In this document: in pieces, positions 33,360 to 43,351 of the stretch | Layout: every line of letters starts with the position of its first letter | How positions within the stretch are numbered: the stretch's first letter is position 1 | Source: Bordetella parapertussis | Lineage (GTDB): Bacteria > Pseudomonadota > Gammaproteobacteria > Burkholderiales > Burkholderiaceae_A | DNA: 64,000 nucleotides | Reading direction: 5' to 3' | NCBI GenBank assembly: GCA_945862985.1 | Contig: CAMAZF010000001.1 | Coordinates: forward strand, 1 to 64,000 | Program-made: the position numbers and the translations under genes | Notes under the pieces: model-generated | What the model saw: the letters and a program-made list of their open reading frames with translations, nothing else | What the model was told of the DNA's origin: nothing | The model's database searches: none

Positions 33360-34454
33360 CTAGCGCGGGGCGTGGAGACTGAGACGCTCAAGCCGTCTCA
33401 CCCTCCAATCCAGCACGGCTGTACACACCGACATCTTCTTGGCGAGCTCAGGCCGAACCTTCTCTATGGTCTGGGCTGCAAATGAAGACAGGAACTGCGC
33501 CTTCACCTCGGCACGAGCCCGGTCCGCGCCTACGTCCTCAAATGGAACCGATGCAAGGAGCAGAAAGCCATCATCTGGAATTCGTCCAGAGGCCATATTG
33601 GACTGAATGATTCCAGCAGCCGTTTGAATGGGATGCGCCAAATCCGGACTATAGGGGCCAATGATGAGCGCGAGATTTGGGGTGTGTAGCCAATCGAATC
33701 CTCTACCCAGGCAGATCACCCACTCGCGATGCTCTATATCGAGCGCTCGAGCCTGACGGGCATTGAGCTCACGAATCTTCGAGACATGTGCCCGATTTCC
33801 CTCAAGCAGCGGCAAAAAGTCCTGTTGCATCACGAGGGGCATATCCGGCAACAGTGCTGCAAGACGGGCACGAAGCCCAACCGGATCCAGATCTGGGAGC
33901 GACGCGATGTCCAGCGGATCTGCGCCGCGGGGGCCATGAATCAGTAACGCATCCTCATCTGTTTCAAAGCCACAAACCACCGGGTACACCGTCTGATGAT
34001 CCGTGCCGAAGATACGCTCTACCTGGTTCTGGATCTGCCAGGTGTGCTGCATACTGGCCGCTCGGTCGTACTGAAACCCTGCACACCCTCGAAGTGGGTC
34101 CCCTCGAGAAAAGTGATAAGTGATGAGCAGGAGCACCCTTCGACCCTGATGCACCATCTTCATGACCTGGTGATGCAAGACCTCTCCAAGGTGAGGCCAA
34201 CCCAAGTCGAACATGCCTCCTAGATTTCGAAAAGGCATCAGAATGCCCGCAGGGGTCTGTGTTGCGACCGAGAGATTGATTCGCCCGTCCATACACTTGA
34301 GGACCAACACAGCGGTGGGATGCTGGGCGAGGTAATGCTCGCGCGCAAGGCTGGCCTCTGAGCCGGCGAACGCTTCACCGTGGCGCTTAGCAAGATCGAA
34401 GAGCCGATCAATCCGCTCTGCGATGGGCGCATGAATGGGCAGTCGATCTGGCAT
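33360..34454 (-). CDS. Beta-class carbonic anhydrase-like protein (CsoSCA-like motifs)
   Basis: A 364-residue soluble protein. VLKCMDGRINLSVATQ (Cys54, Asp56, Arg58) fits the CxDxR zinc/catalytic dyad of beta carbonic anhydrases. ITYHFSRGDPLRGCAGF (His114, Cys124) fits the H-x9/10-C zinc pair whose wide spacing is seen in the carboxysomal enzyme CsoSCA rather than the H-x2-C of ordinary beta enzymes. No Rubisco or carboxysome shell genes lie nearby. The remainder (~150-360) is not recognised. The neighbour downstream is a K+/H+ antiporter, so a bicarbonate/pH role is plausible. The assignment is by motif only. Confidence 0.65.
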   Translation of the reverse strand: MPDRLPIHAPIAERIDRLFDLAKRHGEAFAGSEASLAREHYLAQHPTAVLVLKCMDGRINLSVATQTPAGILMPFRNLGGMFDLGWPHLGEVLHHQVMKMVHQGRRVLLLITYHFSRGDPLRGCAGFQYDRAASMQHTWQIQNQVERIFGTDHQTVYPVVCGFETDEDALLIHGPRGADPLDIASLPDLDPVGLRARLAALLPDMPLVMQQDFLPLLEGNRAHVSKIRELNARQARALDIEHREWVICLGRGFDWLHTPNLALIIGPYSPDLAHPIQTAAGIIQSNMASGRIPDDGFLLLASVPFEDVGADRARAEVKAQFLSSFAAQTIEKVRPELAKKMSVCTAVLDWRVRRLERLSLHAPR

Positions 34455-34470: not shown

Positions 34471-34896
34471 CTACTTCGCAAACAGCCTTGACGGGTCTGC
34501 CATGGCCTTGAACTCAATGGCATTACCGGAAGGGTCAAGAAAGAACATGGTCGCCTGTTCCCCAACCTCGCCCTTGAACCGAATGTAAGGCTCAATGACG
34601 AACTTCACTCCTGCCGCCTTCAAGCGATCTGCCATCGCTTGCCACTCCTGCATGGACAGAACCATTCCGAAATGCCGGACCGGGACCTTTTTGCCGTCGA
34701 CGTCAGAGCAGATGTCATTCGAGGCCTCGCCATGTGCAAGGTGAGCCACAATCTGATGGCCATAGAAATTAAAGTCAATCCAATCCTCAGAACTGCGACC
34801 TTCTGGACACCCAAGCAAGCCGCCATAGAACGCGCGCGCCTCTTGGAGATTATCGACTGGGAAGGCTAGGTGAAAGGGATGTGCGACGTCCGACAT
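34471..34896 (-). CDS. VOC-family (glyoxalase/dioxygenase fold) protein
   Basis: A 141-residue protein with two beta-alpha-beta-beta-beta modules: [25 protein letters not shown] at the N-terminus and [15 protein letters not shown] in the second half, ending [15 protein letters not shown]. Conserved metal ligands are His near residue 9, His in VRHFG and the Glu in AIEFK. The substrate is unknown. It overlaps the upstream methyltransferase by 31 bp. Confidence 0.88.
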
Positions 34897-35888
34897 GCTG
34901 ATTGACTCCTCTGAGAATGGATTGACAGTCCCCAGCCTAGAAGATAACGCCCTTCTGAGATCGGGACGAGACGGGAGAGAAGGCCGGACCTTAGGGCCAA
35001 GAGCCGCTGCATGAGGCTCTCGGCGGAGGCCGTGTCAAGGGCAGCCGAGACCAGCTCAGCCTGTCGGGCGCGAGCCTCTTGGGTTACACGTCTCCAATGC
35101 GTCCAGGCCTGCTGTGCGGGGGCTACGCCCTGTGTCTGAGCGAGGCCCAATATCTCTGCGCAGGCCTCTCGAGCCTGAAACAGAAGATCGGGGATGGGGG
35201 ACTCGGCGGCCCTTCGATCCAGTTCGTCCTGTGCAGCATTAAAGCGCTCTCGAGCCTGCCTCGCCGGAGCGCTTCTCTCCAGCTGCTTGCGCCCTTGAAT
35301 AGAACGAGAGAGCGCCATCGGCTCGATCATGGTCGAGGCGATCGTCATGAGTCCGCCCTCAGAGAAAAGCCAGTCTGCGTGGGCCACCTCCTCTCGGGCC
35401 GCCATGACCAGACGACTCTGGGCATGGTGAAGGAACAACACCAGGTTCGGAGTATCAGAGAGGACCCGACTGACCTCGGGCACCCAGGCCGTTGGGTCTG
35501 CATACTCCACCCCGAACTGCGAGACCAGCCAGTCAAAAGAGCCAGAGGGCTGCTCGGTCTGGGTCATCGATGTGCGGCCCCGAAACTGAATACGCTCCAG
35601 GTTTGACGCCTTCATCTGGGAGTGCCAACCGGGTGAAATGGCTGCGAGATCAATCCCCAAATAACTGCCCCAATCGGGTGCCTCATTCAGCAGCAACAAT
35701 GCGAGCGGACCGTTACCGCAGCCAAGATCAAGGATACGATCACCCGGGCGAATATGTTGGATCCAGGCGCTGCGCCAGAACGACTGAATAGCGCCCTCGT
35801 AGATTCCTCGGAAAGACCCGACACAGGAGTGCAAAGCTCCTGAGGCCCAATAGGCTGTCCAGTCCGTGGCGGAAGGGTTATGTTTCAT
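34866..35888 (-). CDS. Class I SAM-dependent methyltransferase
   Basis: A 340-residue protein with the SAM-binding motif [17 protein letters not shown] near residue 50 and [10 protein letters not shown] as motif [11 protein letters not shown] fits the post-motif region. The C-terminal ~170 residues are helical and arginine-rich with no recognised domain. The length exceeds that of BioC and the segment after motif II is different, so despite lying back-to-back with bioA it is not clearly the pimelate methyltransferase. The start at 35888 leaves 35 bp to bioA; an in-frame ATG at 35915 is less likely. Confidence 0.8.
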
Positions 35889-35923
35889 GGCATGGATGAT
35901 GCGTCGAGCATACACTCTGCGCC

Positions 35924-37312
35924 ATGGTCGAAACCCTAGCCCAGCGAAGTCTCAGAGCCATTTGGCATCCATGCACCCAAATGTGGCAGGCAGACCGTGA
36001 TCCGCCATTGGCGGTGGCTCGCGCGCAGGGTCCTTGGCTCGAGCTTGACGATGGATCACGACTGTTTGACGGCATCAGTTCGTGGTGGGTCAATCTACTT
36101 GGTCACGGGCATCCACGCGTGGTGGAAGCGCTCAAAGACCAGCTCGATACGCTCAGTCATGTGATGTTGGCCGGATGTACGCATGAGCCTGCCGTTGCGC
36201 TTGCGGAGGCGCTGCACGATCTGTCGCATGGGCACCTGGGCCACTGTTTTTTTGCGAGTGACGGGGCCTCCGCAGTCGAAATTGCGCTCAAGATGAGTGC
36301 GCATTCCATGCATGCGCGCGGTCAGGCTGGTCGTAATCGATTTGTATGCCTGACTCAGAGCTACCACGGTGAGACGCTTGGGGCACTGTCGGTGACCGAC
36401 GTCCCGATCTTTCGAGAGTCATACGCCGCTCTGATTCGAGAGCCGCTGCTCGTACCGTCTCCAGATCCCCGCCAAGCGCCCGCCGGCATGTCGGAGGAGG
36501 TCTGGGCAGAACAGGCTGCTCGCGCACTGGAGCGTACGCTCGAGACTCATGGTGCATCGATCTGTGCCCTGATCCTTGAGCCATTGGTCCAAGGTGCAGC
36601 TGGAATGTCCATCTACCCACCGGCTTATCTGCGGCGGGCTCGCGCGCTGACTCGCGCTCACGGCATTCATTTGATTGCAGATGAGATCGCCGTGGGCTGT
36701 GGTCGAACGGGCACTTTCTTTGCCTCAGAGCAATCGCTTCCTGCGGCTGCATGCGCAGCGGACTGGCCTGACTTCATCTGCCTCTCAAAGGGCATCTCAG
36801 GGGGGTTCTTGCCCCTGTCTCTCGTCCTGACTCAAGACGAGGTCTATCAGGCTTTTTATCATCCTCAGATCCAGAGAGGCTTTCTGCATTCGCATTCCTA
36901 TTCAGGCAACCCGCTCGCCTGTCGAGCAGCGCTCACCGTGCTCCAAGTGCTCCGAGATGAGCAGCTCTTGGAGAAAACTGCCCGAGCCGCCCAAGCACTC
37001 ACCTCAGCACTGTATGTGGCGTTAAGCCCCGCCTTGAAGGCTGGAGCCCTTCGCCATTTCAGAACCATCGGGAGCATCTGGGCCGTGGACATCAGCCCCA
37101 GCCATCTCGGCCAAGACTGCACTCGGCGCATTCGGGACACCGCGAGAGCCAAAGGCCTGCTGCTCAGGCCCATCGGTCCCACTGTCTATTTGATGCCTCC
37201 ATTCGTGCTGCACGAGGGCCATGTGGAATGGCTCAGCGACACCTTTACGCAGAGCATCCTTGAGAACCTAGGCCATCATGCTTCTGGATCGACTCCGCCA
37301 ACGCTTGCGTGA
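35924..37312 (+). CDS. bioA: Adenosylmethionine-8-amino-7-oxononanoate aminotransferase
   Basis: A 462-residue PLP-dependent class III aminotransferase making DAPA from KAPA using SAM as amino donor. The N-terminus IWHPCTQMWQ and GISSWWVNLLGHGHP are characteristic of BioA, as is SHVMLAGCTHEPAV. The PLP lysine is in FICLSKGISGGFLPLS and the preceding DEIAVGCGRTG carries the PLP-contacting Asp. It overlaps bioF by 35 bp. First gene of the biotin operon. Confidence 0.97.
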   Translation: MVETLAQRSLRAIWHPCTQMWQADRDPPLAVARAQGPWLELDDGSRLFDGISSWWVNLLGHGHPRVVEALKDQLDTLSHVMLAGCTHEPAVALAEALHDLSHGHLGHCFFASDGASAVEIALKMSAHSMHARGQAGRNRFVCLTQSYHGETLGALSVTDVPIFRESYAALIREPLLVPSPDPRQAPAGMSEEVWAEQAARALERTLETHGASICALILEPLVQGAAGMSIYPPAYLRRARALTRAHGIHLIADEIAVGCGRTGTFFASEQSLPAAACAADWPDFICLSKGISGGFLPLSLVLTQDEVYQAFYHPQIQRGFLHSHSYSGNPLACRAALTVLQVLRDEQLLEKTARAAQALTSALYVALSPALKAGALRHFRTIGSIWAVDISPSHLGQDCTRRIRDTARAKGLLLRPIGPTVYLMPPFVLHEGHVEWLSDTFTQSILENLGHHASGSTPPTLA

Positions 37313-38498
37313 CCGAGGTGCCGCGACCCTGATCCGGGAACGCGCGACTCTTTTTGGGCCGAGCGGTCGAACCGTGCTCCGCGGGCGTGGCAGCGAGACC
37401 GCGTCTGCACGGCCACTTTTGAACTTTGCAAGCAACGACTATCTCGGGCTCGCCAACCATCCCGACATCGTCGCTGCTTTTCATCAAGGTCTTGAGCGAT
37501 ACGGGGCGGGGTCCGGCGCGTCGGCGATGGTGAGCGGCCATAGCCAGGCTCACGAGGAGCTTGAATGGGCCATTCGGGACTGGGTGGCTCCGCTCTTTCC
37601 TGACTGCCGATGCCTACTCTTTTCAAATGGATATCTTGCCAACCTAGCCCTGCTGACATCGCTGGGTGAGCGTGGTGACGGCCTGTTCTGCGACAAACTC
37701 AACCATGCATCATTGATTGATGGCATGCGCCTCAGTGAGGCGGATCATCGCCGATATCCCCACGCAGACCTGACAGCCCTGGAGCGGCAGCTCGAGGCAA
37801 GCCGGGCACCTTTCAAATTGATCGTGACGGACGGCGTCTTCAGTATGGATGGGGATATTGCGCCCTTAGCAGGGTTGATTGACCTGGCTGAGCGATTCGA
37901 TGCGTTTGTGGTGGTGGACGATGCACACGGCATGGGTGTCCTGGGTGATGAGGGCCGAGGCGCTCTGGCCCTCGCCCAGATCTGCAGTGACCGTATCATT
38001 TTGATGGGCACCCTTGGCAAGGCAGCAGGAGTGTCGGGGGCCTTTGTCGCTGCTCATCCCACCGTGATTGAGTGGATGCAACAGACCGCACGCAGCTTCA
38101 TCTACACCACCGCTCCACCACCCGCAGCCAGTCACGCCCTTCTCGAGAGCCTGCGCATCATTCGTGGTGAAGAGGGGTCGAGACGACGAGATCGGCTCAG
38201 GGGGCTCATCCTTCAACTCCAGGCTGAGGCTGGTGCATTCGAGGGGCTCGGGGTTCATCTTCTGCATTCCATGACCGCCATCCAACCCTTGGTGGTGGGG
38301 GAGAACCGGGCCGCGCTCTCTCTTGCGAGCATGCTTGAACAGAGAGGCATCTGGGTTCCAGCCATTCGCCCGCCTACAGTCCCAGAGGGGACTGCTCGGT
38401 TACGCATCTCCCTGTCGGCCGCTCACCAGGAGAACGATGTGAGTCAGCTCTGTTCGCTGCTTCGATCCACTTTGGAAGGAGTGGCCCCAAAGGACTAA
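37278..38498 (+). CDS. bioF: 8-amino-7-oxononanoate synthase
   Basis: A 406-residue PLP-dependent alpha-oxoamine synthase that condenses pimeloyl-ACP/CoA with L-alanine. LLNFASNDYLGLANHP, GSGASAMVSGHSQAHEELE, VVVDDAHGMGVLGDEGRG and MGTLGKAAGVSGAF (Schiff-base Lys) are diagnostic. It begins within the end of bioA, so the two are coupled. The stop lies inside an inverted repeat leading into amt. Confidence 0.96.
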   Translation: MLLDRLRQRLRDRGAATLIRERATLFGPSGRTVLRGRGSETASARPLLNFASNDYLGLANHPDIVAAFHQGLERYGAGSGASAMVSGHSQAHEELEWAIRDWVAPLFPDCRCLLFSNGYLANLALLTSLGERGDGLFCDKLNHASLIDGMRLSEADHRRYPHADLTALERQLEASRAPFKLIVTDGVFSMDGDIAPLAGLIDLAERFDAFVVVDDAHGMGVLGDEGRGALALAQICSDRIILMGTLGKAAGVSGAFVAAHPTVIEWMQQTARSFIYTTAPPPAASHALLESLRIIRGEEGSRRRDRLRGLILQLQAEAGAFEGLGVHLLHSMTAIQPLVVGENRAALSLASMLEQRGIWVPAIRPPTVPEGTARLRISLSAAHQENDVSQLCSLLRSTLEGVAPKD

Positions 38499-38517
38499 AA
38501 TCTCGATTTTTTGGGGC
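38484..38517 (+). repeat. Inverted repeat between bioF and amt
   Basis: GCCCCAAA (38484-38491) and TTTGGGGC (38510-38517) form a perfect 8-bp stem with an 18-nt loop that contains the bioF stop codon. The right arm covers the region where the amt ribosome binding site should be. It could act as an attenuating or translation-coupling hairpin. No T-tract follows, so a simple terminator is unlikely. Confidence 0.55.
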
Positions 38518-38525
38518 GAATCCTG

Positions 38526-39731
38526 ATGAATGCTGCAGCTGCGACGAGCGTAGACACGCTTTTTATTCTGCTTGGGGCCATTATGGTGCTGGCGATGCAC
38601 GCAGGATTTGCCTTTCTTGAGGTCGGGACCGTCCGTCACAAGAATCAGGTGAATGCGCTCGTCAAGATCGTCTCAGACCTCTCTGTGAGTGGGCTCGCTT
38701 ACTTTTTCATTGGTTATTACCACGCCTATGGGATTCATTTTTTCGTGGGCGCGGAGGCCCTGACCCAGGACCACGGGTTCAGCCTCACGAAGTTCTTTTT
38801 CCTCTTTACGTTCGCTGCGGCGATCCCAGCAATCATCTCAGGCGGCATTGCTGAGCGCGCGCGATTCGGGCCTCAGCTGATTGCGACAGCCCTTATGGTA
38901 GGGCTCGTGTACTCCCTCTTTGAGGGTATGGCCTGGAACAATCTCTTTGGCTATCAGGACCTCTTGAAGGGCTGGTTCGGAGAGACCTTTCATGATTTCG
39001 CGGGATCGGCCGTGGTTCACGCCGTAGGCGGATGGGCGGCGCTGATTGCTGTGCTCTTCCTTGGCCCTCGGGCTGGCCGCTACCGGTCGGGAGGCGCTGT
39101 CGCCGCACACCCCCCAAGCAGTATCCCCTTTCTTGCATTGGGCAGCTGGATCCTGATCGTCGGATGGTTTGGGTTTAACGTCATGAGTGCCCAGAAGATT
39201 GAAGCGATCTCAGGACTCGTAGCACTCAATAGCCTCATGGCCATGATCGGGGGAACCCTCGCAGCCCTCGCCGCCGGACGCAATGACCCTGGCTTCGTCT
39301 ATAACGGGCCGCTGGCAGGCCTCGTGGCCGTCTGTGCAGGCAGTGATGTGATGCATCCCATTGGCTCGTTGGTGGTGGGACTGCTCGCAGGCCTCTTGTT
39401 TGTGCAGATGTTCACCTTCACTCAGAACCGCCTCAAGATCGACGACGTGCTGGGCGTCTGGCCTCTTCACGGATTGTGTGGCGTCATGGGGACAGTTGCG
39501 GTGGGAATATTCGGGCTCCCGGCTCTGGGCGGACTGGGCGGAGTGGCCCTGGGCAGCCAGATCGTGGGCGCCTTCACCGCGATCGTGATTGCAGTTCTGG
39601 GCGCGACCTTGATCTACGGAGGACTTCGCTACACGATCGGGTTGCGCCTCGACCGAGAGGCGGAGTACGAAGGCGCTGACATCAGCATCCATAAGGTCTC
39701 CTCAACTCCCGAGCGAGAGACCAGTTGGTAA
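38526..39731 (+). CDS. amt: Ammonium transporter (Amt family)
   Basis: A 401-residue membrane channel for ammonium with 11 or so transmembrane helices. GFAFLEVGTVRHKNQVNALVK, FAGSAVVHAVGGWAALIAVLFLGPRAGRY, NVMSAQ and DVLGVWPLHGLCGVMGTVAVGIFG are Amt signatures, including the twin pore histidines (HAVGG and PLHGLCG). No PII gene (glnK) is adjacent. It lies inside the biotin operon between bioF and bioD, 27 nt after bioF and overlapping bioD by 7 nt. Confidence 0.95.
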   Translation: MNAAAATSVDTLFILLGAIMVLAMHAGFAFLEVGTVRHKNQVNALVKIVSDLSVSGLAYFFIGYYHAYGIHFFVGAEALTQDHGFSLTKFFFLFTFAAAIPAIISGGIAERARFGPQLIATALMVGLVYSLFEGMAWNNLFGYQDLLKGWFGETFHDFAGSAVVHAVGGWAALIAVLFLGPRAGRYRSGGAVAAHPPSSIPFLALGSWILIVGWFGFNVMSAQKIEAISGLVALNSLMAMIGGTLAALAAGRNDPGFVYNGPLAGLVAVCAGSDVMHPIGSLVVGLLAGLLFVQMFTFTQNRLKIDDVLGVWPLHGLCGVMGTVAVGIFGLPALGGLGGVALGSQIVGAFTAIVIAVLGATLIYGGLRYTIGLRLDREAEYEGADISIHKVSSTPERETSW

Positions 39732-40432
39732 GTGGAGGGTCCGGCCTTTTCGTGGCCGGAACAGACACTGAGATTGGCAAGACGCTGGTGTCCTGCAGTC
39801 TCGTGCGACTCGGTCGAAGATGGGGAGTGAGAACAGCAGGCTTTAAGCCGATCTCTGCAGGCCGATTCAACGCTGCACTGAATGAGGATGTGGCGGCCCT
39901 ACATGAAGCCACTCACCTCGCGGAAATTGACCCCCAGACGGTCGGTCCGATCCAGTTGCTCGCCGCCTGCGCGCCTTCCGTAGCGGCTGCTCGAGAGGGG
40001 CTCTCTCTCTCGTTTGACCCCATTTGGTCTGCCATGGATCGGCTGCGCCGAGCGGTTGATTGCCTCATCGTGGAGGGGGTTGGAGGGTTCGATGTTCCCC
40101 TGAACCGTGAACAGTCGACCGCAGATCTCGCCCGAGACATGGGGTTGCCAGTCGTTCTGGTCGTCGGCATGCGCCTGGGCTGCATCAACCATGCACTGCT
40201 CACCCTCAGAGCCATCCAAGATGAAGGGCTTCCCATTGCAGGGTGGATTGCCAACACCGTGGATCGGGACATGTTATTTTCCGACGAGACCTTCTTTGAG
40301 CTACAGGACGCCGTGCAGCACCGTTTTCAGGCGCCCTGTCTCGGGAGAATTCCCAGACTAGACCAGACTCTCTATGACCCGCTCGACGCTCTCTACACCG
40401 ACGCCCTCCGACCCTACTTTTTCGCTCCCTGA
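39725..40432 (+). CDS. bioD: Dethiobiotin synthetase
   Basis: A 235-residue P-loop enzyme closing the ureido ring of dethiobiotin with ATP and CO2. [20 protein letters not shown] is the BioD P-loop start; GFKPISAG and [13 protein letters not shown] follow as expected. A TTG start at 39725 gives the usual length and overlaps the amt stop; GTG at 39752 would cut into the P-loop. It overlaps bioB by 59 bp if bioB starts at 40374. Confidence 0.95.
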
Positions 40433-41375
40433 GGTGCCCGCTCGCCCCCGCTGGAGCACACAAGCGGTGATTGATTTGTATGAGTTGCCGTTTCTAGACC
40501 TCGTGTTTGAGGCTCAGAAGGTCCATCGGGATCATCAGCCGCGCAATAGCGTTCAGCTCTCCACCCTTTTATCCATCAAGACCGGCGGGTGCGCGGAGGA
40601 CTGCGGATATTGTCCGCAGTCGGCTCATCATGAAGGCAGCGTCAAGGCAGAAAAGCTCATGGAGGTCGGCGATGTCCTTGAGGCCGCTGCCGAGGCAAAG
40701 GCCCAAGGCGCAAGCCGCTTCTGCATGGGTGCCGCCTGGAGGAGTCCGAAAGACAAAGACATGGCTGCGCTCACAGACATGATTAAAGGGGTTCGCGACC
40801 TTGGGCTCGAGACCTGCATGACTCTCGGGATGCTGACCGATGATCAGGCCCATGCACTTGCAGAGGCGGGGCTTGACTACTACAACCACAATCTAGACAC
40901 CTCTGCGGACTTCTATGGGCAGATCATCTCAACCCGTCAGTTTGAGGACCGTCTCGAGACCCTTGACCGGGTTCGAGATGCTGGCATTCATGTCTGTTGC
41001 GGCGGTATTGTGGGCATGGGTGAATCACGTCGGCAACGCGCGGGCCTGCTGGCCACGCTGGCGAACCTCTCGCCTGCTCCGGAGTCGGTGCCGATTAATC
41101 AGCTGGTGCCGGTTCCCGGCACCCCCCTTCACGGCACTCCCGCACTCGACCCGCTCGAATTCGTGCGCACCATTGCGGTCGCAAGAATTCTCATGCCCAA
41201 GGCACGCGTGCGCCTCTCTGCGGGGCGTGAGGGAATGTCTGATGAGCTCCAAGCCCTTTGCTTCATGGCCGGCGCCAACTCTATTTTCTATGGGGATCGG
41301 CTGCTGACCACCTCCAACCCCCAGGCTGAGCGCGACCGGGCGCTCCTTCAGCGGCTTCAGATTCTGCCTGTATGA
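40374..41375 (+). CDS. bioB: Biotin synthase
   Basis: A 333-residue radical-SAM enzyme inserting sulfur into dethiobiotin. The CxxxCxxC cluster motif is in [17 protein letters not shown] and the second-cluster ligands are expected at the conserved Cys in [17 protein letters not shown] and [13 protein letters not shown]; the Arg ligand lies in [10 protein letters not shown]. The ATG at 40374 overlaps bioD by 59 bp; GTG at 40434, just after the bioD stop, is an alternative. Neither has a good Shine-Dalgarno. Confidence 0.97.
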
Positions 41376-42403
41376 CTTCGACCCAGCTCAGCTGGGATGC
41401 TGCGCTGTATGGGGGCGCGTGGGTCGCACACGGACGGGCTGCCGTGCAGTGGGCACTGAGCTCTGAACACCTCTCATCTGATCGAACAGCGGGCTGGATC
41501 CGAAAGGCGGGCGCCGCGAGGGGAGAACAACGCGGATTTCGTTCTCTTCTCTCTCGAGCATTCATCTTTTTGGATGGATCGGAGCACTTGGCTGCTCGCA
41601 CGGCGGCTGCATCTCACTTCTCAGTCCACCAAGTGCTCCAGCGAAAGGCCTTGCTCCATCAATGGGCCGACGAGGTGGCGGGCGCCATTCCTGCAGGCAG
41701 TCCCGTTGATCTGGTGGAGCACTATGCCCGACAGGTACCCCTTCGGATCATGTGTCATTGGATGGGGATCAAGGTTGAGAGTAGCCCTGGCCTCTGGTCT
41801 GCCTCTCGAGCGCTCGCGCTTTTTTTGGAACGGCCGAGCCTTCATGCCAGCGTTGCCCGAGAGGCAGAGGACGCCGCACGATGGCTCATCGCCGCCCTGG
41901 GCCTTCAAGAGCCCTTGTCAGATGGGCAGGTTCAGAGGCTCATGCTGTTTTTCGCAGGTCTCGAGACGACTCGGCACTTGCTCTCTGTCAGTCTCCTCAT
42001 GGGGCTTCAGAGCACACAGACCTGGCAATCCCTCGCGCAAGAGTCTTGTGCACAAGCCGTCGTGCACCAGGTTCTGAGAGAGCACCCTCCCATTCGAATC
42101 ACTGGGCGCCGGGTGAAGCACAGTCATCTTGCGTTCGGACAGGCGCTGCGAAGAGGTGACCTGGTGGTTGCAGACCTGCACTCTGCGGGCCTGCCCTTCG
42201 GGAGTGGCCCGCACACTTGCCTGGGTGCAGCACTCACGCGAACCGAGGCGATCACGGCCTTAAAGGCCCTGTCTCAAGCACGTCCTCTGCTCCGACTTGC
42301 CAAGGCGCCCTCTCCTGAGGCCTGGCTGGCTGGCCCCTTGTACAACGGGCTCACTGAATTGTGGGCAACAGACGCTCCAGATGATCTGCCACAGTCTCAG
42401 TGA
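41372..42403 (+). CDS. Cytochrome P450, short, in biotin operon
   Basis: A 343-residue P450, about 50 residues below the bacterial norm of ~400. Motifs present are the helix C region [17 protein letters not shown] (from residue 68), the oxygen-activation motif AGLETT (195-200) and the haem-binding loop [10 protein letters not shown] with Cys283 as thiolate ligand. The normally invariant ExxR reads QVLR (Gln233), and only 46 residues separate its Arg from Cys283, roughly 20 fewer than usual, so the meander is shortened. ATGA overlap with bioB suggests co-translation. Bacillus BioI is a P450 that makes pimeloyl-ACP, which suggests a similar role; that is inference. Confidence 0.85.
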
Positions 42404-43313
42404 ACGTGGCGTAAACCGGGTTGGCGACAAACCCCAGGTGCGGTGAGAGCGTGAGCTGCTCCATGGTTCTAAAAGGATGGTCTGAAGGCAAGGGCTCTTG
42501 CTCGAAAACATCGAGTGCAGCCATGGCGGGTCGGCCTTGCTTTAAAGCATTCAGAAGATCATGCTCCACGACCAGGCCCGCGCGTGAGGTGTTGACCAGT
42601 ACGCTGTCGGGGCGCATCGCGGCGAGTCGTTCAGCATTGATCAAGCCTCGCGTGGAGTCAGCCAACACCATGTGCAGGCTTACCGCCTTGCTCAGTCGAA
42701 GCAAGTCTTCTAGAGAAGACCACTCAGCCCCACCGGCCTGAGCACGCTCCACAGTAAGGTTAGGACTCCAGGCCAGCACACGCATCCCAAAGGCCTGGCC
42801 CACGCGCGCGACACGAGCGCCAATATTCCCGAGGCCAATTAATCCGAGGGTCTCTCCCTCTAGGATGTCTGACAACTGGGGGAAATGGAGGCCCTGACGC
42901 CAGTCTGCATGAGGCTCTCTGAGCACCTTGAACCCAGCTTCGAGCCGCTTGAGGCTCGCGAGGATCAGAGCCCAGGTCAGCTCACAGGTGCTGGCCTTCG
43001 ATGGCCCGAATTGGGTATTGAAAACAGGGAGGCTTCGCGCCTGACAGGCGGCCTCATCCAGAAGGTTGTTTCGAGTCCCGGTGTAGATCACGAACTTTAA
43101 GTGGGGCGCTTGGTTGAGCTCTGCCTCTCCGAAGGGGGTGCGATCTCGCATCAGAACGACCCCACTGGCCCGAGACAAAGCGGTCTCCAGGGCCACGCCA
43201 CGCAAGGGAGCCGAATGGAGCTCAAGCGTGGCCATGCGCTCCAGCGCCCGAATTCGCGGGGTGTTGGAGAATGCATGCTCGAAGTCGTCAAGAAAGAGCA
43301 CGACAGGTTTCAT
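42351..43313 (-). CDS. D-2-hydroxyacid dehydrogenase family protein
   Basis: A 320-residue NAD-dependent dehydrogenase. The Rossmann motif GLIGLGNIGARVARVGQAFGMRVLAWSP lies mid-protein, and the catalytic Arg (NTSRAGLVVE), Glu (DVFEQEPLP) and His (LSPHLGFV) are all present. The substrate is not predictable. The ATG at 43313 with AAAGG 9 nt upstream is preferred to ATG at 43322. The 3' end overlaps the convergent P450 gene by 53 bp. Confidence 0.9.
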   Translation of the reverse strand: MKPVVLFLDDFEHAFSNTPRIRALERMATLELHSAPLRGVALETALSRASGVVLMRDRTPFGEAELNQAPHLKFVIYTGTRNNLLDEAACQARSLPVFNTQFGPSKASTCELTWALILASLKRLEAGFKVLREPHADWRQGLHFPQLSDILEGETLGLIGLGNIGARVARVGQAFGMRVLAWSPNLTVERAQAGGAEWSSLEDLLRLSKAVSLHMVLADSTRGLINAERLAAMRPDSVLVNTSRAGLVVEHDLLNALKQGRPAMAALDVFEQEPLPSDHPFRTMEQLTLSPHLGFVANPVYATFTETVADHLERLLPTIQ

Positions 43314-43351
43314 TTGGGACATCCTTTCGGTTGGAGTCGAGGAGATCAGCC

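Follow-up and report, generated by a model that had tools for sequence, protein, structure and literature searches.

Cytochrome P450s of proteobacterial biotin operons and a reduced family member behind bioB in the window genome

A lineage of cytochrome P450s was found settled in the biotin operons of proteobacteria, and the gene at 41372-42403 on the plus strand of the window (the 64,000-nucleotide stretch of DNA analysed here) appears to be the copy carried by the window species. Gene order and profile matches suggest that this family probably has a BioI-like role in biotin synthesis, namely the supply of the pimelate moiety. The family is the stronger finding; the window copy is a much reduced member, with about even chances of being a still-working P450 or a recently inactive one, as judged from its sequence.

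Results

The biotin operon of the window genome has the order bioA-bioF-amt-bioD-bioB-P450. The bioA gene (35924-37312, TIGR00508, 467.5 bits against a cut-off of 405), the bioF gene that overlaps it (37278-38498, TIGR00858, 431.5 bits, cut-off 426.45), bioD (39725-40432, TIGR00347, 149 bits, cut-off 83) and bioB (40374-41375, TIGR00433, 406 bits, cut-off 225) all lie on the plus strand, and each of their products exceeded the threshold set by one NCBIfam equivalog model bearing its name. Between bioF and bioD lies an ammonium-transporter-like gene (38511-39731, plus strand; PF00909, 290 bits), on which the earlier note was silent and which the congener G007 lacks among its own biotin genes. 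A class I methyltransferase gene (34866-35915, minus strand) stands head to head with bioA, and beyond it the gene at 33360-34454 (minus strand) matched the carboxysome shell carbonic anhydrase catalytic domain (PF20686, 26.9 bits against a cut-off of 21.5).

The P450-derived gene encodes 343 aa from an ATG start that, as the earlier note had described, lies inside the bioB stop; by the ORF coordinates the two genes share the four nucleotides ATGA. No Shine-Dalgarno sequence was visible by eye upstream of this ATG, which fits translational coupling to bioB. Since the next gene, for a 2-hydroxyacid dehydrogenase (42351-43322), is convergent with the P450 gene and overlaps it by 53 nt, the P450 gene is the last of the operon, which confirmed its reported place at the end of the biotin genes. 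The same note had labelled the gene a cytochrome P450, a label that holds by descent, given the clade placement and phmmer matches, and only marginally by signature. The Pfam model PF00067 scored the protein at 22.7 bits, just under its cut-off of 22.8, and a whole-genome search in the Pfam P450 test did not match the gene at E 0.001. TamI was its top PDB match by phmmer (E 5.5e-22), Bacillus BioI was absent from its best 60 PDB matches, and its best NCBIfam match was TIGR04515, at 54 bits against a cut-off of 343.

In length the window protein falls 80 residues short of its Collimonas relative (423 aa). Counted between residues shared in the alignment, the losses amount to 17 residues N-terminally, 10 more up to the F-G region, 25 from that region to helix I, 22 from helix I to the Cys (in essence the meander) and six C-terminally. 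Two signatures are kept: the I-helix oxygen-activation motif, AGLETT, which fits (A/G)Gx(D/E)T (41954-41971, plus strand; aligned residues 195-200), and the Cys loop, FxxGxHxCxG (42197-42226, plus strand), with Cys283 at 42218-42220. Two others, not remarked on in the earlier note, are lost. The ExxR position in helix K (42068-42079, plus strand; residues 233-236) reads QVLR, with Gln in place of a Glu shared by all 17 core relatives, G007 and two BioI proteins; the catalytic motifs are conserved among the relatives. At the junction of residues 273 and 274 (42188-42193, plus strand) about 21 residues of the meander are missing; the conserved meander Asp, Pro and Arg (alignment columns 384, 391 and 398) are present in all 17 core relatives and G007, and the window protein has gaps at these columns. 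The G007 protein keeps both the ExxR Glu and the meander, with Leu replacing the Phe of the Cys loop, and an abbreviated N terminus is also seen in the P450s of G007 and G214, which directly follow bioB.

The core of a typical P450 pairs the ExxR Glu with the meander Arg, and their joint loss therefore looks like a single remodelling and not like two accidents; an assembly error may also lie behind the ExxR change or the meander deletion. In a survey of 48 Streptomyces species, all 1625 P450s had the ExxR Glu, and 34 sequences that lacked a motif were excluded as fragments or pseudo-P450s (PMC6408508). Because the Glu is absent here, the gene was filed as P450-derived.

A tree including BioI had been proposed as a check by the earlier note. 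The tree built here from 42 P450s united the 15 bio-linked rows with four close unlinked rows in a single 19-row clade (support 100/100); the window protein fell inside it and Bacillus BioI outside. The window and G007 proteins were sisters within the clade (97/94), a grouping that came with the tool's warning that two long branches meet (2.0 for the window, 2.5 for G007); the best identity of the window protein within the tree set was 33%. When the clade and BioI were forced to be monophyletic, the constraint was not rejected with 40 rows (p = 0.209) and was then rejected in a denser tree of 37 rows (AU p = 0.003), with the window and G007 proteins left out of both tests. Separate recruitment of the clade from Bacillus BioI is graded as favoured only, because the 37-row set, to which a BioI, a Paenibacillus P450 and a Nostoc P450 had been added and from which six distant rows had been dropped, was chosen after the first test. 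Descent as an ordinary BioI orthologue was thus weakened by the denser tree, not by the first. A profile built from 12 clade members found BioI as the best of all PDB sequences (321 bits, with PksS at 314, 8yhn at 299 and PikC at 298), and the single Collimonas P450 scored 258 with PikC and 256 with BioI.

A search of 100 relatives' genomes gave five matches: the window genome, G007, G032 and two weak ones in G083 and G076. In G007, of the same genus, the operon is A-F-D-B-P450, with the P450 gene behind bioB; a chorismate-binding (pabB-like) gene adjoins bioA there (L038 14961-16994). In G032, judged to be Collimonas by 97% identity to L050, the order is P450-bioF-A-D-B. Named genomes were scanned with six peptide patterns from the Collimonas protein, a procedure that finds close relatives, so that the sample is uneven. 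Of the 27 P450 loci in this pattern-based scan, 17 were at least 60% identical and 10 at most 36%; bio genes or bio fragments adjoined the P450 at all 17 close loci and bio genes at none of the 10 distant ones. Nine of the close loci are from Collimonas, and the others include Glaciimonas soli and G. immobilis (the former with two additional, broken copies), Oxalobacteraceae CAVE-383 (P450-bioF only), Devosia elaeis, a betaproteobacterial MAG and Mesorhizobium norvegicum, in which a bioF fragment is all that is left beside the P450. The broken copies in G. soli (L063 and L068) are of the bioB-P450 pair, and an intact operon is present in L057. In D. elaeis (L061) P450-bioF-bioA-bioD-bioB follows on from riboflavin genes, which encode RibD, RibBA, RibH and lumazine-binding domains, and an integrase-core ORF lies behind the P450-bio cluster; the whole looks like a mobile vitamin cluster.

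Six plasmid records held a clade P450 at 50% identity or more, four of them bio-linked. The Cupriavidus P-10 and N-1 plasmids have bioA-F-D-B-P450, P-10 with the same 4-nt overlap as the window; Cupriavidus EM10 has this order with several genes split over frames, and Polaromonas P1-6 has bioF pieces, a bioD fragment, bioB and the P450 in two frames. Those of C. pinatubonensis and Massilia putida were not bio-linked in the plasmid records. In the C. pinatubonensis plasmid a gene for pyruvate carboxylase, a biotin enzyme, lies behind the unlinked P450 (L084 7318-10827).

Among 399 genomes of the order, 27 had a P450 match at 1e-60. Six were at least 45% identical, and three of these are bio-linked: G032; G214, with the order bioB-P450-F-A-D; and G229, a genome of 1.2 Mb in six contigs, estimated to be 100% complete, that has kept P450-bioF-A-D (18-kb stretch). 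No bio gene was found over 14-16 kb around the P450s of G251 and G337, in the 1.5-kb flanks of that of G309, or, in flanks of up to 1.5 kb, at the other 24 loci fetched from the order sample (about 40% identity or less). A pabB-like gene stands beside the unlinked P450 of G337 (L115 2636-3835), and G251 is similar by eye. Five close relatives (L084, L085, G251, G337 and, for its 1.5-kb flanks, G309) had no adjoining bio genes in the stretches covered. Clade P450s stand directly behind bioB in G007, Cupriavidus P-10, N-1 and EM10, Polaromonas P1-6, G214 and the betaproteobacterial MAG, and ahead of bioF in Collimonas, Glaciimonas, Devosia and others. With clade P450s recurring beside bio genes, a chance neighbour of bioB was rejected as an explanation.

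The earlier note had also pointed out that neither bioC nor bioH is in the operon, which is correct, and had suggested searching the rest of the genome for them. In the window genome, which is 91% complete, no BioC scored over the cut-off (the best match, 42.8 bits against 185, was its own UbiE) and neither did any BioH (best 53 bits against 207); alpha/beta hydrolases, potential substitutes for BioH, are encoded in the genome. A BioC-like remnant lies at about 108.7-109.5 kb of contig C1 (L041 1230-2000), with no Pfam methyltransferase match, beside a ComF-like gene of 39 bits that is under its model's cut-off; the congeners G004 and G009 had partial BioC-like matches similar to this remnant. 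BioW was found in none of 12 genomes, the window genome and G007 included, and the control was detected in B. subtilis.

None of the 15 P450-operon genomes of the named scan had a BioC over the cut-off. A BioC-like methyltransferase under it, at 163-173 bits (cut-off 185), was present in 12 of the 15, and in each of the 12 it adjoins comF. Of the other three, a 1.7-Mb Collimonas MAG had no BioC match at 1e-15, and matches reached at most 66 bits in Devosia (partial, beside comF) and 74 bits in Mesorhizobium. BioC-like genes were also present in G214 (168 bits, beside comF), G229 (167 bits, no comF in the locus) and G032. No BioH exceeded the cut-off in the 14 genomes searched for it (10 of the 15 named ones plus G214, G229, G251 and G337), 12 of which are P450-operon genomes. 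Across the order, BioC was over the cut-off in 210 of 399 genomes, the window genome, G007, G032, G214 and G229 not being among them. Among the matches listed, 12 genomes of family f8 and six of family f31, most of them without a close P450, had a BioC at E-values of 4.6e-41 to 1.2e-52, which were taken to be under the cut-off from the E-values (the weakest over-cut-off match among those listed was 3.7e-55). A simple division, in which genomes with the P450 lack BioC and others have it, therefore fails, since same-family genomes without a close P450 show an equal sub-cut-off BioC. As such a BioC is usual in those families with or without the P450, the missing full-score BioC is no evidence of replacement there, and, given the BioC-like gene in most P450-operon genomes, the P450 need not be their sole route.

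The reading frame of the window copy is open, its deletions are in-frame and the ATGA overlap is kept. In a neutral simulation the frame stayed open in 55 of 2000 copies at 0.1 substitutions per site and in 0 of 2000 at 0.5, which rules out an old pseudogene. Because the open frame excludes long neutral drift, selection must have kept the gene through most of its divergence, and any loss of function can only be recent. The protein keeps 53 of 78 clade-invariant positions and 54 of 262 variable ones. Its codon make-up is gene-like, which says little: the CAI-like value was 0.714, with 0.716-0.764 for the other eight genes, and incorrect frames of that stretch gave 0.636-0.705. Quick trees, each of 10 or 11 rows, gave the P450 end branches of 7.2 for the window and 8.4 for G007; the corresponding values were 0.35 and 0.39 for BioB, 0.38 and 1.18 for BioF, 0.80 and 1.14 for BioA, and 0.07 and 4.5 for BioD. 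The long end branch of the window P450 fits relaxed selection. A bioB match was present in two of 11 same-genus genomes; the nine without one indicate that the genus can live without making biotin.

Discussion

For the P450 family, these results are best read as a probable P450 route to pimelate, because clade P450s are recurrent members of bio operons, BioI is the nearest structure by profile, BioW is absent from the 12 genomes searched and neither BioC nor BioH reached the cut-off in the window genome. In the proposed mechanism, a P450 family recruited to proteobacterial biotin operons would bind a long-chain acyl-ACP, receive electrons from a host ferredoxin or flavodoxin, and oxidise and cleave the acyl chain at C7-C8 to release pimeloyl-ACP. 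BioF would use this product directly, and BioW would be unneeded if BioF takes pimeloyl-ACP. The window copy has evolved very fast and has shed both the ExxR Glu and the meander, on which the Arg that partners this Glu normally lies. Such a route had been raised by the earlier note for the window gene alone; the family context, the BioI profile match and the lack of BioW now speak for it, and the BioC-like gene in 12 of 15 genomes and the reduced core of the window copy speak against it.

The strongest challenge concerns the window gene itself, which could be a recently inactivated or heme-less remnant, with bioF, bioA, bioD and bioB using imported pimelate, KAPA or dethiobiotin, or with auxotrophy in the making. 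The missing ExxR Glu and meander, a total shortening by 80 residues relative to Collimonas, the extreme branch and the lack of a bioB match in nine of 11 same-genus genomes make this a serious possibility, held a little below even chances since the open frame, in-frame deletions, ATGA overlap, Cys loop and I-helix motif are all kept and, with little weight, the codon make-up is gene-like. It is compatible with a family role in pimelate supply.

Other readings concern the role of the P450 where a methyltransferase is at hand. The P450 may be accessory, pimelate being made by the BioC-like methyltransferase and an unrecognised esterase while the P450 does something else, for example for a biotin-related compound or a variant precursor. 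The 163-173-bit BioC matches beside comF, the similar genes of G214 (likewise beside comF) and G229, and the equally strong matches in same-family genomes without a close P450 are all in agreement with this, as is a Streptomyces BioI-like P450 that serves alpha-methyl-KAPA synthesis (PMC13336041). However, the window genome, G007, Devosia and Mesorhizobium lack a BioC match of that strength, and clade P450s are mostly accompanied by bioF-A-D and usually by bioB too, so that an accessory role is possible but rather unlikely. Oxidative replacement of BioH, in which the P450 would demethylate the pimeloyl-ACP methyl ester in genomes with BioC and without BioH, would suit both the BioC-like gene in 12 of 15 genomes and the sub-cut-off BioH in all 12 P450-operon genomes of the 14 searched. 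It is nevertheless quite improbable, given the want of a comparable BioC in the same four lineages; moreover, a variety of hydrolases can replace BioH, and a negative search with a single profile therefore carries little weight. Lastly, the methyltransferase divergent from bioA (34866-35915) could be the substitute BioC of the window species, as its head-to-head position, its PF13649 domain and its occurrence at E 1e-10 in one of 31 genomes, the window's own, might suggest. This is highly improbable: it had no BioC match at E 1e-5, and it is unmatched in G007, which has the P450 and no BioC. As a BioC candidate the gene is unsupported.

Pimelate supply thus remains the preferred role for the family. 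A bolder proposal is that a second P450 lineage, separate in origin from BioI, entered proteobacterial biotin operons by a recruitment of its own, spreads on plasmids and between classes and works as a pimelate route without BioW, and that the window's reduced member still works without the ExxR-meander lock; taken as a whole this is doubtful on the sequences at hand. Bio-operon P450s without BioW would provide a context where pimelate can actually be supplied through a P450, and the window copy offers a way to probe how far the P450 core can be pared down. In the literature covered (titles and the beginnings of abstracts, with most subscription papers outside this coverage), no proteobacterial bio-operon P450 was named. 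BioI has been described as unique to B. subtilis (PMC12915131), as limited to few microorganisms (PMC11089781) and as an enigma in B. subtilis, where it is non-essential and its product is unusable by BioF (PMC7645780).

Among known systems, BioI (CYP107H1) resembles the window case in gene arrangement: in B. velezensis and B. amyloliquefaciens the P450 stands directly behind bioA-F-D-B, as in the window operon, the full order in B. velezensis being bioW-A-F-D-B-P450. The Bacillus system thus includes BioW, unlike the 12 genomes tested here. The BioC-BioH route is expected to yield the same end product as the P450 route, but neither of its genes is in the window operon or over the cut-off in the genome. 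BioE, reported in Burkholderiaceae, is a diiron oxygenase and belongs to another protein family than the P450s. With respect to the reduced core, CYP157-type P450s, which are ExxR variants, and TIGR04515 proteins, which are P450-derived glycosyltransferase activators, have partly lost the P450 signatures. The window copy shares such partial loss and differs from both in its combination of features, having lost the Glu and the meander while keeping the heme Cys, in a biotin context.
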